A DNA stretch of 64,000 nucleotides from Pontivivens nitratireducens (GTDB lineage Bacteria > Pseudomonadota > Alphaproteobacteria > Rhodobacterales > Rhodobacteraceae). Position numbers and translations under genes: made by a program. The stretch covers positions 248,001 to 312,000 of the forward strand of contig NZ_JACJUQ010000001.1 of assembly GCF_014235845.1 (NCBI RefSeq). Reading direction: 5' to 3'. Below the pieces are notes generated by a model. That model was given only the letters and a program-made list of their open reading frames with translations, made no database searches and had not been told where the DNA came from. Of the stretch, positions 42,389 to 52,038 are shown in pieces (position 1 is the stretch's first letter; every line of letters starts with the position of its first letter).

Positions 42389-43099
42389 ATGTCAGACGAT
42401 AACCCATTCACGGCCTCGAAATTGCCATTCGCGTTGCTGGTCAGCGTCGCGGTATCGTTCATCCTCGCCGTGATGCTGATGTTCGTTCTGGGCCTGTCGG
42501 GCATGCTGGCGATTTTCGCCGGGGTGATGATCCTGATCGTGCTGTTCGCGGTGCTGATCTATTTCCTGGGCGACGACGACACCATTCATAAGGCGGAGGA
42601 GGTTTTGGGCGTCAAGTTGACGGACCCCGAGCCGGTTGCGCCCTCTGATCCTGTGGTTCCCGCGGAACCCGCACCGGCGGTCGCGCCGACCGAGGCCGGG
42701 GCCGATCCGGCTGCCGCGCCTGTGGCGGACCCCGCCGAGGTGCCCGAACCGCGCGGCGCAGAGGAAGAGGTCGCGCCGGTCGCATCCTCCGCACCCGCGC
42801 CTGTGGTTGAGGAGGACACGGCCCCGTCGCTAGGGGGTAAGCCCGAAAGCCTCTCCGCCCCGCGCGGCGGCGAGGCCGACGATCTGAAGCGCATCAAGGG
42901 CGTGGGTCCCAAGCTGGAGCAAATGTTGAACTCCATGGGGTTCTGGCATTTCGATCAGATCGCGTCATGGTCCGAGGCCGAGGTGGCATGGATCGACGCG
43001 AATCTCGAAGGTTTTAACGGTCGGGTTTCGCGTGACGAGTGGGTCGCGCAAGCGCAAACGCTAACCTCCGCGAAGGCGGACGATGGCGGGGCCTCCTGA
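42389..43099 (+). CDS. Membrane protein with C-terminal helix-hairpin-helix domain, nuo-operon insert
   Basis: 236 residues. Two membrane helices at residues about 12-60 (LLVSVAVSFILAVMLMFVLG, then MLAIFAGVMILIVLFAVLIYFLG), a Pro/Ala/Glu-rich linker of about 80 residues, and a C-terminal domain with KRIKGVGPKLEQMLNSMGFWHFDQIASW and VSRDEWVAQAQ. The last domain is shared with the protein encoded at 26710. It sits between nuoE and nuoF and looks like a detached form of a NuoE C-terminal extension plus a membrane anchor; role in complex I assembly or stability is inferred. GGGAG precedes ATG 42389. Confidence 0.85.
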   Translation: MSDDNPFTASKLPFALLVSVAVSFILAVMLMFVLGLSGMLAIFAGVMILIVLFAVLIYFLGDDDTIHKAEEVLGVKLTDPEPVAPSDPVVPAEPAPAVAPTEAGADPAAAPVADPAEVPEPRGAEEEVAPVASSAPAPVVEEDTAPSLGGKPESLSAPRGGEADDLKRIKGVGPKLEQMLNSMGFWHFDQIASWSEAEVAWIDANLEGFNGRVSRDEWVAQAQTLTSAKADDGGAS

Positions 43100-43106
43100 G
43101 GGTCCG

Positions 43107-43331
43107 ATGAACGAGGAACGGAACGCCAGCCTGAAACGGCAAACCCGCCAGGCATCGATTGTGATCGTTGCGGGATTTCTGGGCTGGATGGCGTTTCAGC
43201 TGGTGGGTGGAGCGATCGGGTTGCCGGTGCGTTTCGCTTTTCTGGCGGATTTGGCGATGCTGGCCGCACTGGCCTGGGCATTGTTCGTATTGATAAATGT
43301 CTGGCGTGCACGCCGGAGCGAAGGGGACTGA
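43107..43331 (+). CDS. DUF5337-like small membrane protein in the nuo operon
   Basis: 74 residues from ATG 43107 (GAGGG upstream); an ATG at 43083 would add 8. Two predicted membrane helices ([20 protein letters not shown] and [20 protein letters not shown]) and basic ends ([14 protein letters not shown]). Resembles the DUF5337 family, which I recall in Rhodobacteraceae nuo operons. Stop is one base before nuoF. Possible accessory or assembly factor of complex I. Confidence 0.75.
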
Positions 43332-46648: not shown

Positions 46649-46769
46649 ACATGACCCGTCATGCCCTTTCCCCGCCGGATTTTGGCAAGGGATGTGCGAC
46701 GGTGAGGGATGGCTCAAGACGTATCTGTGCCGCCATCCCGGCACAAAATGAGTGGCGGAGAAGTGGATC

Positions 46770-47147
46770 ATGAGTATTTTTGCGCGTGTACTGATCGTGG
46801 CAACCCTCGCGCTCGGCGCATGTGCGACGAGCCAGAGCAACAATTTCGCGGGTGAGCCGATCGAACGGGTTGCCCGCAAGATCGGCTTTCCGACAAGGGT
46901 GATGGAGTTGCCGGACGGTCGCCGAACCTATCAGTGGGACATTACGCAGACTGCTCAGGTCGGGCCGCTGCGGCCATCCCTGCGAGGTTTAGTCCTCAGC
47001 ACATCCGGTGATGCCGGTGTCGGAATTGGGCTGGACCGCGATACCGTGACGACGGGCGTGTGCACCTATACCCTGACCGCGGCACCGGTCGGGGAGACCT
47101 ATATAGTGGAACCATTTCCGGTCGGAAATCCCGGCTGTCTGTCCTGA
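46770..47147 (+). CDS. Predicted small lipoprotein between nuoG and nuoH
   Basis: 125 residues. Signal peptide with lipobox LALGAC (Cys at about residue 18), then a small domain with GEPIERVARKIGFPTRVMELP and YQWDITQT, a pattern of small outer-membrane or periplasmic proteins related to OsmE/SmpA-like folds, but I cannot name it. Four cysteines in all. GGAG lies upstream of ATG 46770. It sits inside the nuo operon, where a complex I function is not known. Confidence 0.75.
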   Translation: MSIFARVLIVATLALGACATSQSNNFAGEPIERVARKIGFPTRVMELPDGRRTYQWDITQTAQVGPLRPSLRGLVLSTSGDAGVGIGLDRDTVTTGVCTYTLTAAPVGETYIVEPFPVGNPGCLS

Positions 47148-48286: not shown

Positions 48287-48778
48287 ATGGCATTTACCTA
48301 CACACGCGCCGCAAAATATTTCCTGCTGGCTGATTTTTTCGGCGGATTCAAACTGGGGCTCAAGTATTTCTTCGCCCCCAAGGCGACCCTGAACTATCCG
48401 CATGAGAAGGGCCCCTTGAGCCCGCGCTTTCGCGGAGAGCACGCTCTGCGCCGCTATCCCAACGGTGAGGAACGGTGCATCGCGTGCAAATTGTGCGAGG
48501 CGATCTGCCCTGCGCAGGCGATTACCATCGAATCCGAACCACGCGAGGACGGATCGCGCCGTACGACGCGTTACGACATCGACATGACGAAATGCATTTA
48601 TTGCGGTTTCTGTCAGGAGGCCTGCCCGGTCGATGCCATCGTCGAGGGGCCGAATTTCGAATTTTCGACCGAAACGCGTGAGGAACTGTTCTACAACAAG
48701 GACAAGCTGCTCGCGAACGGGGAACGTTGGGAGGTCGAGATCGCACGCAACCTCGAACTCGACGCGCCGTATCGCTGA
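48287..48778 (+). CDS. nuoI: NADH-quinone oxidoreductase subunit I
   Basis: 163 residues. Two [4Fe-4S] clusters with ferredoxin motifs [16 protein letters not shown] and [16 protein letters not shown], between NuoG and NuoB in the electron path. An N-terminal amphipathic helix docks on the membrane. Starts three bases after nuoH. Confidence 0.97.
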
Positions 48779-48792
48779 AGGACTACCCACTG

Positions 48793-48809
48793 CCCCGGAC
48801 TTGAGCCGG
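48793..48809. repeat. Degenerate palindrome in the nuoI-nuoJ gap
   Basis: CCCCGGACTTGAGCCGG in the 126-base gap resembles a degenerate form of an intergenic palindrome (CCCCGGACTTGATCCGGGG type) that I recall as repeated in many alphaproteobacterial genomes. A short stem CCGG/CCGG is possible. The rest of the gap holds the nuoJ ribosome site. Confidence 0.35.
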
Positions 48810-48904
48810 AGCGGTCGCCACGTTAGAGAGACGCCGAACCGGCGCAACACACCGCAAGGGCGACTCTCGTGTTCGCCTGTACCGGCCAAGACCAAGGGAC
48901 TGCC

Positions 48905-49519
48905 ATGACCGTCGCAGCCGTCATCTTCTACCTCTTCGCCTGCACGGCGGTGGCCTCCGGGCTGCTCGTCGTCCTGGCACGCAACCCGGTACACTCGGTA
49001 TTGTGGCTGATTCTCACGTTCTTCTCCGCCGCGGGGCTTTTCGTGCTGATGGGGGCGGAGTTCGTCGCCATGCTGCTGCTGATCGTCTATGTCGGTGCGG
49101 TGGCGGTGCTGTTCCTGTTCGTGGTGATGATGCTCGACATTGATTTCGCCGAACTGCGGCAGGGCATGGCCCAGCACATGCCGGTTGCGCTGTTGATCGG
49201 TATCATCCTGATCATGGAGCTGGTCCTGATCATCGGCGGAACATTGTGGGCCGACGACTCCAGCCCGCTGCGCGTCGCAATCGCCCCCGCGCCCGAGATG
49301 GTCGAGAATACCAGGGCCCTGGGCAGCATCATCTATACCGATTTCATCTTCATGTTTCAGACCGCCGGTCTGATTCTGTTCGTGGCCATGATCGGCGCGA
49401 TCGTTCTGACCCTGCGCCATCGCGCGGATGTGAAGCGTCAGAACGTCGTGCAACAGATGCATCGTGACCCGGCCGAAGCCGTGGTGATGAAAGACGTGAA
49501 ACCGGGACAAGGACTGTAA
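48905..49519 (+). CDS. nuoJ: NADH-quinone oxidoreductase subunit J
   Basis: 204 residues, five membrane helices. [51 protein letters not shown] is the typical core, cut here as [35 protein letters not shown]; the pi-bulge helix lies in it. ATG 48905 with AAGGGA upstream is preferred to an upstream in-frame start. Confidence 0.96.
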
Positions 49520-49521
49520 TC

Positions 49522-49617
49522 ATGGACAACGCGATCTTCTACATTCTGATCATTGCAGCCGTGGTCGTCGGCTACGGTCTGGGACGGCTGACCGGCAACA
49601 AGGACAAAAACGAATGA
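49522..49617 (+). CDS. 31-residue one-helix ORF between nuoJ and nuoK
   Basis: ATG 49522 to TGA 49617. The peptide is a single membrane helix (residues about 5-20, [15 protein letters not shown]) followed by a charged tail (TGNKDKNE). AAGGA sits upstream at about 49509-49513. Its stop overlaps the nuoK start (ATGA, 49614-49617), so translation is probably coupled to nuoK. No other reading of this stretch is needed, since nuoJ ends at 49519. Such genes escape standard length cut-offs. A small complex I subunit or assembly peptide is inferred, not shown. Confidence 0.7.
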
Positions 49618-49919
49618 TCGGGCTTGCTCATTACCTGATCGTGGCGGCCTTGCTGTTCGTCACCGGGATTTTCGGGATCTTTCTCAACCGCAAGAACATC
49701 ATCGTCATCCTGATGTCGATCGAGCTGATGTTGCTGGCGGTAAATATCAACATGGTCGCGTTTTCCGTGCACCAGGGCGATCTGGTGGGGCAGGTGTTCA
49801 CCCTGTTCATCCTGACCGTCGCTGCGGCCGAGGCTGCTATCGGTCTTGCGATCCTCGTCTGCTTCTTCCGCAACCGCGGGACGATTCAGGTCGAAGACGT
49901 CAACGTGATGAAGGGCTGA
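49614..49919 (+). CDS. nuoK: NADH-quinone oxidoreductase subunit K
   Basis: 101 residues, three membrane helices. [35 protein letters not shown] is the family core, cut as [20 protein letters not shown]; the Glu of SIEL is in the proton path. Starts in the stop of the 31-residue ORF. Confidence 0.96.
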
Positions 49920-49920
49920 C

Positions 49921-52038
49921 ATGTATCAGATCATCCTGTTCGCGCCGCTGATTGCGGCAATCATCGGCGGTTTTGGCTGGCGCATCATCTCCGAGAAGGG
50001 AGCGATGGTCCTGACGACCGGTGCGGTAATGCTGGCCGCATTGCTGAGCTGGATCGCCTTTCTGGGCGCGGATGCGGAGCTGGAGATCATCCCCATCGCC
50101 CGCTGGATCGACAGCGGATCGATGGTGGCGGACTGGGCGATCCGGGTGGATATGCTGACCAGCGTCATGCTGGTCGTCATCACGACGGTATCGGCGCTCG
50201 TTCATCTGTATTCCTTCGGCTACATGGATCACGATCCGCAATGGCGTGAGGGCGAGACGTACAAGCCGCGCTTCTTTGCCTATCTGTCGTTCTTCACCTT
50301 TGCGATGCTGATGCTGGTGACGGCGGACAATCTGTTACAGATGTTCTTCGGCTGGGAGGGCGTCGGCGTGGCGTCCTATCTTCTGATCGGTTTCTACTGG
50401 CGCAAACCCACGGCGGGCGCTGCGGCGATGAAGGCTTTCATCGTGAACCGGGTCGGTGATTTCGGATTCATCCTGGGCATCTTCGCGCTGTACATCCTGA
50501 CCGACAGTGTCGATTTCGCGACGATCTTCGGTGAGATGGACCGCTTGACGACAACGTCGATCAGCTTCCTCGGGCTCGATCTGCCGGCACTCGAAGTGGT
50601 CGGATTTCTTTTGTTCATCGGTGCGATGGGCAAGTCGGCGCAGTTATTTCTGCACACATGGCTGCCCGATGCGATGGAGGGGCCGACACCGGTTTCCGCG
50701 CTGATCCACGCGGCGACCATGGTGACGGCGGGCGTCTTCCTGGTCTGTCGGATGTCACCCGTTTATGACGAGGCGATCTATGCCGCCGGGTTCATCACGA
50801 CGATCGGTGCGCTCACCGCATTCTTCGCCGCCACCGTCGGTCTGGTGCAAAACGACATCAAGCGCGTTATCGCCTATTCCACCTGCTCGCAGCTCGGTTA
50901 CATGTTCGTGGCAGCGGGCGTCGGCTTCTATCAGGCGGCGATGTTCCACCTGTTCACACATGCCGCCTTCAAGGCGATGCTGTTCCTGGGCGCGGGTTCC
51001 GTGATCCATTCCATGCATCACGAGCAGGACATGAGAAACTATGGTGGACTGCGCAAGAAAATCCCCATGACCTTCTGGGCCATGATGTTGGGCACGCTGG
51101 CCATCACCGGCGTGGGCATTCCGTTCAGCTACGATCTGTTCGGCGTACCGATCGGCTTTGCCGGGTTCGTCTCCAAGGACGCAATCATCGAGGGTGCGTT
51201 CGCCGGTCACGCCTATTTCGCCTTTACGGCGCTAGTCATCGCAGCACTGTTCACCAGCTTCTACAGCTGGCGCCTGATGTTCCTGACCTTCTATGGCAAG
51301 CCGCGCGGGGATGCGCATACGCACGATCATGCGCATGAAAGCCCGTGGGTCATGACCGTTCCGTTGGGTGTTCTGGCCATCGGCGCCGTCTTTGCCGGGA
51401 TGGTCTACTACAACAGCTTCGTCGGGCACGACGCCGAGGAATTCTTCGGTGATGCGATCGGTGGACCGGCTGTAATGGCCGCTGACGGTCATGGCGTCGT
51501 CGCCGATGGACATGAACCTATGGTCGATAGTCATGGTGAAGAGATCGAGGGCGAAGACCTCCTCGCGGATGGCAGCAATGCGGTCGATACCGCGCACGGT
51601 TCCGAGGGGGCGCATGACGAATCTGTCCTGCATTCCTATCACGACGTGCCGTGGCTGGTTGCCCTGTCACCGTTCATCGCGATGCTGGTCGGGCTGTTGA
51701 CGGCGTGGATGTTCTACATTCGCAATCCGCAGACACCTGCACGTCTGGCGTCCGCGATGCCTGGGCTGTACCGGTTCCTGCTGAACAAATGGTATTTCGA
51801 CGAGATCTACGACGTCCTGTTCGTGCGCTCGGCGAAATGGCTGGGTCGGTTCCTGTGGCGCAAGGGCGATGGCAGGGTTATCGACGGCGGCATCAACGGC
51901 CTGGCCATGGGTATCGTGCCGTTTCTCACTCGTATTTCCGGGCGTGCTCAATCCGGTTACGTCTTTCACTACGCCTTTGCGATGATAGCGGGTCTGGTCG
52001 CCATCATCACATGGTTCGCAATCCGCGGAGCCTCCTGA
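49921..52038 (+). CDS. nuoL: NADH-quinone oxidoreductase subunit L with His-rich loop
   Basis: 705 residues, an antiporter-like proton-pumping subunit with the long lateral helix at its C-terminus. Core blocks: [41 protein letters not shown] and [23 protein letters not shown] loop at residues about 466-575 is enlarged and rich in His/Asp/Gly: [10 protein letters not shown] at 466-473 and [22 protein letters not shown] further on, possibly metal-binding. NuoL is normally about 610-680 residues, so the extra length is in that loop. Confidence 0.97.

Follow-up and report, generated by a model that had tools for sequence, protein, structure and literature searches.

A one-helix reading frame overlapping nuoK in Pontivivens nitratireducens is very likely a small membrane gene of the complex I operon

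Introduction

Bacterial complex I is usually seen as an enzyme of 14 core subunits with a few extras. KdpF, a peptide of about 29 amino acids with one helix, is a case of a very small peptide whose gene belongs to the operon of its membrane complex (KdpFABC), and its likeness to the peptide described here is an analogy. CydX, CydY and CydZ are, like the peptide described here, short single-helix peptides from the operon of a respiratory membrane complex, and the operons related to cytochrome bd hold further small families (PMC4325964, PMC6005532; here and below, papers are cited from excerpts of their text). CydX is 37 amino acids in length, 80 of the 306 CydX homologues in the table of one paper were unannotated (PMC4325964), and the peptide tolerates much sequence change (PMC6005532). 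In cyanobacterial NDH-1, a relative of complex I, NdhP and NdhQ are single-transmembrane proteins of <5 kDa (PMC4131877). The extra subunits named for the complex I of Paracoccus denitrificans are NDUFS4, NDUFS6, NDUFA12 and a PIMT (PMC11522691).

The locus described here lies in a window of 64,000 nucleotides of P. nitratireducens DNA (the whole stretch that was analysed), in which a first-pass annotation had singled out a small frame between nuoJ and nuoK as a possible extra membrane subunit or assembly peptide of complex I. Among open-licence papers, none was found that is evidently about a small ORF between nuoJ and nuoK. The original Paracoccus and Rhodobacter operon papers are said to list unidentified reading frames, and the nuoJ–nuoK ORF may already be drawn in them.

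Results

The nuoJ–nuoK spacer and its translation signals

The genes nuoJ (48905..49519; Oxidored_q3, Pfam PF00499, E 7.3e-40) and nuoK (49614..49919; Oxidored_q2, Pfam PF00420, E 4.4e-31) both lie on the forward strand and are separated by a spacer of 94 bases (49520-49613) that runs from the nuoJ stop codon at 49517-49519 to the nuoK start at 49614. Ninety-two of these bases are taken up by a forward-strand frame of 31 codons at 49522..49617 (ATG...TGA, the coordinates including the stop), recognized from the reading frame, its codon usage and dN/dS and referred to here as the J-K ORF, which encodes a peptide of 31 residues and whose stop codon overlaps the start of nuoK in the ATGA at 49614..49617 (forward strand). 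A hydrophobic helix, placed by the Kyte-Doolittle maximum, occupies residues 4-21 (49531..49584, forward strand) and ends in GYGLG. With a maximum 17-residue Kyte-Doolittle mean of 2.53, the J-K peptide has the composition of a protein of <50 amino acids with one transmembrane helix. The start codon, the coordinates, the 94-base gap, the single helix and the ATGA overlap were all as the first-pass annotation had described them. From the charge of D2 as opposed to those of R22, K27 and K29, the predicted topology of the peptide is N-out/C-in.

An AAGGA Shine-Dalgarno-like site, which the first-pass annotation had counted in favor of the ORF, is indeed present 8 nt ahead of its ATG (49509..49513, forward strand) and lies inside the nuoJ codons for PGQGL; the equivalents in congeners are G-rich. 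In the two nearest genera by nuoJ + nuoK (G018 and G149), the PGQGL tail adjoins nuoK directly, the spacers measuring 4 and -4 nt and lacking an ORF, and because the same NuoJ tail precedes nuoK in these ORF-less genomes, the upstream site is by itself weak evidence. A second AAGGA site, for nuoK, is encoded by the charged tail of the ORF at 49600..49604 (forward strand), 9 nt ahead of nuoK and within the codons for NKD (AAC AAG GAC). The charged tail to which the annotation had drawn attention is there, but its residues are poorly conserved. Readings of the spacer as an RNA structure or a promoter were rejected, given that the spacer RNA has no unusual fold (z = 0.49) and that 48700-50000 was free of promoter-like sites. 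The same region had four terminator-like matches, compared with 0.9 expected, and none of them was within the spacer.

Coding signal and conservation within the genus

A codon table was built from 15 ORFs of the window and log-odds were scored per codon. The mean codon log-odds of the J-K ORF was 0.80, whereas known genes averaged 0.53 over stretches of 31 codons, and among several thousand sampled wrong-frame stretches the fraction that reached its score was 0.0000. The genus sample consisted of four genomes, that of the window (G000) and G001, G002 and G003. The frame, its start position and the overlap with nuoK are kept in three of these four species, the window's included: the 31-residue orthologue of G002 likewise overlaps nuoK by ATGA, and that of G001, MEPYIYYALIVAALVVGYAIGRKSSQGEDK, overlaps it by GTGA. 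The Shine-Dalgarno-like site of nuoK is AAGGA in G002 and AAGGAG in G001. Loss of the frame while the flanking DNA still aligns, which the first-pass annotation had named as evidence against a gene, was not found within the genus. In G003 (L085) there is a different one-helix ORF, MTRKQRGWFAIILAIAVAIFVAITD, which ends 30 nt before nuoK and is either a replacement of the J-K peptide or an extreme divergence of it. The G003 ORF has a basic N-terminus and reversed charge, hence a predicted topology opposite to that of the J-K peptide.

The annotation had proposed dN/dS across homologues as a check, and the comparison of G000 with G002 gave dN 0.16 and dS 1.41, for a dN/dS of about 0.11 that is approximate in view of a dS near saturation and a set of only three sequences. 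The 25 nucleotide differences between these two genomes are distributed 7/1/17 over the codon positions, and the fraction of random placements with as few amino acid changes was P = 0.0004. For G002 and G001 (25 codons), 0 of 20000 shuffles changed as few amino acids, and for G000 and G001 (25 codons) the result was not significant (P = 0.059, or 0.088 over more codons). The first two of these comparisons point to purifying selection on the J-K peptide and hence to its conservation as a protein. Four residues, G17, Y18, G21 and R22, are invariant in the three orthologues, with G17 and G21 forming a GxxxG.

Two origins for the peptide were considered. An origin from the 5' end of nuoK was rejected, as the orthologues matched the NuoK N-terminus no better than shuffles did (P 0.18 to 0.48). 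Comparison with the NuoL N-terminus gave scores of 32 to 41 (P about 0.01 each), with the target having been picked after seven proteins were viewed, and an origin there is not claimed.

Reach of the peptide beyond the genus

In a six-frame peptide search of 295 genomes of the family (G001 not among them), only G000 and G002 were matched at E < 0.01; the next best match (E 0.0145) was a long frame on a contig other than that of nuoK. The search in relatives that the first-pass annotation had suggested has a divided outcome, in that the frame is kept inside the genus but the peptide was not found outside it. On a rough nuoJ+nuoK tree the three J-K members need one change, with a branch support of only 29. 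The J-K peptide may be genus-specific, or it may be evolving too fast for recognition further out. Pfam gave it no match above the curated cut-off, NCBIfam none at E up to 1, and the PDB no matching chain (E up to 10, a search run without a positive control); across these three resources homology to a known supernumerary subunit family was not found, and the Pfam and NCBIfam scans gave neither a CydX-type nor an NdhP/NdhQ-type match.

One-helix ORFs in the nuoJ–nuoK spacers of Rhodobacteraceae

The closest named relatives of the window by nuoK are mostly Rhodobacteraceae, which was taken to be its family. Among the 295 same-family genomes, nuoK was located in 283, and nuoJ–nuoK regions were taken from 281, of which 277 were usable. 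The spacers were <45 nt in 59 genomes, 45-130 nt in 113, 131-300 nt in 36 and longer in 69. The survey counted ORFs of 20-45 amino acids in the spacer with a hydropathy of at least 2.0, a threshold that misses some members (e.g., L192) and may admit a few false ones. A one-helix ORF was found in 31/277 genomes, or 29/275 minus the window and G002 (rows that are not independent by descent), and was absent at this threshold from 246/277. Within spacers of 45-300 nt, 27 of 149 contained such an ORF versus 0 in the antisense direction, and 100 dinucleotide shuffles of these spacers yielded a mean of 0.04 and a maximum of 1.

The peptides were placed into groups by eye. These were the following: group D, the window's own; group A with its variant A2 (..VANGYF.., ..AFGYFNR..), A being found also in P. 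denitrificans (L013); group B (MSxNTIxVxVVVxxxxGGY..); group C (MNLWLIIGVAMI.., with a basic tail); and group E (..APLLPL..RRRREKKKRFEG..). For the within-group pairs outside D, 18/25 had fewer amino acid changes than random placement (P about 0.01 or less), made up of 3/3 pairs in C, 6/6 in A2, 2/3 in A, 2/3 in E and 5/10 in B, a sign of purifying selection in several of the groups. A single family for all J-K peptides was rejected, as the group profiles cross-match only at an E of at least 1, about level with reversed decoys, the one exception being two C members found by the E profile (E 0.017 and 0.045). A GY at the end of the helix is recurrent, as judged by eye, in A, B and D. The recurrence of one-helix ORFs at this junction is a more interesting finding than the window's peptide.

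Other contents of nuo junctions and of the window

Larger, secreted-looking proteins were identified by eye between nuoJ and nuoK at L026, L034, L057, L160, L187, L189, L206 and L252, in several genera, with the common signature THxSHGGE...GRVxWxxWWSQEG...CACAA.YP, and at L187 and L206 a second, unlike ORF is beside the secreted-looking protein. The larger spacer proteins have no evident tie to complex I. A short helix family of the LLLSPAGLAAYAxFWALKL type occurs soon after nuoJ at L051, L121, L123, L138, L158, L190 and L209, also in several genera, and at L145 a peptide of the SPAGLAAYAxFWALKL type appears to be followed by one like those of group A.

The nuoJ–nuoK junction was rejected as uniquely variable, as the nuoI–nuoJ junction is variable too: among 79 named loci (L002-L081, with the window and some non-Rhodobacterales included), the nuoI–nuoJ spacer was at least 300 nt in 48, with a median of 400. 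Because the window's nuoI–nuoJ spacer is 126 nt (48779-48904), there may have been gene loss at that junction.

Elsewhere in the window, two ORFs lie ahead of nuoF, one at 42389-43099 whose N-terminus has hydrophobic stretches and which gave a weak, sub-threshold helix-hairpin-helix match, and one at 43083-43331 encoding a DUF5337 protein (PF17272, E 1.5e-24). Between nuoG and nuoH there is a 131-codon ORF (46752-47147) that has a lipoprotein-like start by eye (ATLALGACA) and no Pfam match. The same genome has, at L086 (G000:C9:41013-41297), a second NuoK-like gene that is 37% identical and has a NuoJ-like match upstream; this locus may represent another complex I or some related cluster. A plasmid search returned two matches, at chance level.

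Comparison with Paracoccus

P. denitrificans (L013) has a one-helix J-K ORF of 26 codons with a TTG start. The selection test was not significant between the two Paracoccus loci compared (P = 0.07), and was significant for each of them against L125, which belongs to another genus (P 0.0002 and 0.0004). The PDB has no chain that matches the product of the Paracoccus ORF (E up to 10, again without a positive control), and no mention of a J-K product was found in the main text of the 2.3 Å complex I paper, as excerpted (PMC11522691). The argument from Paracoccus in the first-pass annotation points in both directions: NDUFS4, NDUFS6, NDUFA12 and CI-PIMT are extra proteins of an alphaproteobacterial complex I, as the J-K peptide would be, but none of these four extras named in the excerpted text is a one-helix peptide from between nuoJ and nuoK (PMC11522691).

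The P. denitrificans model was built from the sequences of known subunits and the PIMT (PMC11522691), and because of this an unsuspected helix could be left out of it. A fully occupied extra helix should, we would expect, be visible in the 2.3 Å nanodisc map. In Paracoccus, Nqo7 and Nqo11 escaped trypsin-based mass spectrometry (PMC8115037). A loose, substoichiometric or assembly-stage peptide would fit better than a fixed subunit, provided that the Paracoccus ORF is translated and that its product has the same job.

Discussion

Conservation in the genus, dN/dS, codon usage and the family survey lend strong support to the view of the first-pass annotation that the operon has a real, tiny membrane gene here, and the J-K ORF is very likely a small, lineage-specific membrane gene of the complex I operon. 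That its product would serve complex I as a subunit or in assembly is plausible. Our leading reading, which takes about half of our confidence, is that the ORF is translated into a single-pass inner-membrane peptide of 31 residues that is coupled to NuoJ and NuoK and is most likely an accessory of the complex I membrane arm. The nuo mRNA would yield the peptide in concert with NuoJ and NuoK, with the Shine-Dalgarno site in the nuoJ tail positioning ribosomes for the ORF and with the ATGA overlap and the site in the peptide's own tail passing them on to nuoK. Its conserved GxxxG face would then most likely pack against the membrane arm, probably near NuoJ and NuoK, and the peptide would aid assembly or stability while being dispensable and restricted to its lineage, an accessory comparable to CydX in cytochrome bd and NdhP in NDH-1. 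We infer a partner within complex I because the ORF is situated between two membrane subunits and shares translation signals with them; any role would be dispensable, given that the ORF of G003 is a different one and that the nearest genera lack an ORF here. It counts against the accessory reading that most same-family genomes are without such an ORF and that the spacer also houses larger proteins that are not obviously connected to complex I. Speaking against a tightly bound subunit in particular is that the ORF exists in Paracoccus, yet there is no PDB chain for it and no mention in the excerpted 2.3 Å paper (PMC11522691).

The same larger proteins, together with the SPAGLAAYAxFWALKL-type family, would be expected if the peptide were a real membrane microprotein with a partner other than complex I and the nuoJ–nuoK junction were a tolerant site for small membrane or secreted genes expressed with the operon. 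The long nuoI–nuoJ spacers and the failure of the profiles of groups A to E to clearly find each other are also in keeping with such a site. We regard it as possible but rather unlikely, as one-helix peptides of <45 amino acids recur in the spacer far above chance, and as all three orthologues overlap nuoK, so that their dose is linked to complex I. The recurrence also raises a wider interpretation, which we put forward tentatively and hold to be unlikely: that the nuoJ–nuoK junction of Rhodobacteraceae is a standing slot in which at least five groups (the window's own together with A, B, C and E) arose separately, or drifted apart past recognition, and share one function at a single site of the membrane arm, as an overlooked class of accessory subunit of bacterial complex I.

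The overlap is open to a different explanation, in which the ORF is a bridge or leader that carries ribosomes from nuoJ to nuoK and keeps the mRNA at the membrane, with the peptide as a by-product. This would account for the ATGA or GTGA overlap, and for the location of the nuoK Shine-Dalgarno-like site within the ORF, that are seen in each of the three species with the ORF, but we consider it distinctly doubtful. Conservation was not confined to the signals, as the amino acids of the helix are conserved and not just the signal-bearing tail (codons 1-23 of G000 and G002, dN 0.06 versus a saturated dS of 2.3). Furthermore, 21 of the 31 surveyed one-helix ORFs stop 3 to 583 nt before nuoK with no overlap, nuoJ and nuoK are almost adjacent with no ORF in the nearest genera, and the RNA has no unusual fold. 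That the frame is a chance opening in spacer DNA and not a gene is highly improbable, and a chance peptide was rejected on dN/dS, codon usage and the antisense and shuffle controls, even though there are three orthologues only and the frame is absent from one species of the genus and from neighboring genera.

A one-helix gene within the operon, with unlike sequences at the same junction in some relatives, implies that small membrane partners could go unnoticed in annotation, in trypsin-based mass spectrometry and in models built from known sequences. CydX is a proven component of its oxidase, whereas the partner of the J-K peptide is proposed from the layout of the operon (PMC4325964, PMC6005532). 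Similarly, NdhP has been demonstrated within its complex, whereas membership of complex I is for the J-K peptide a prediction; the N-terminus of NdhP is predicted to face the lumen, which is the topology predicted here for the J-K peptide (PMC4131877). As judged by the Pfam, NCBIfam and PDB scans, CydX and NdhP are analogies and not homologies of the J-K peptide. If the nuoJ–nuoK junction does prove to be a standing slot for one-helix accessories, the class would parallel the single-transmembrane subunits of mitochondrial complex I.
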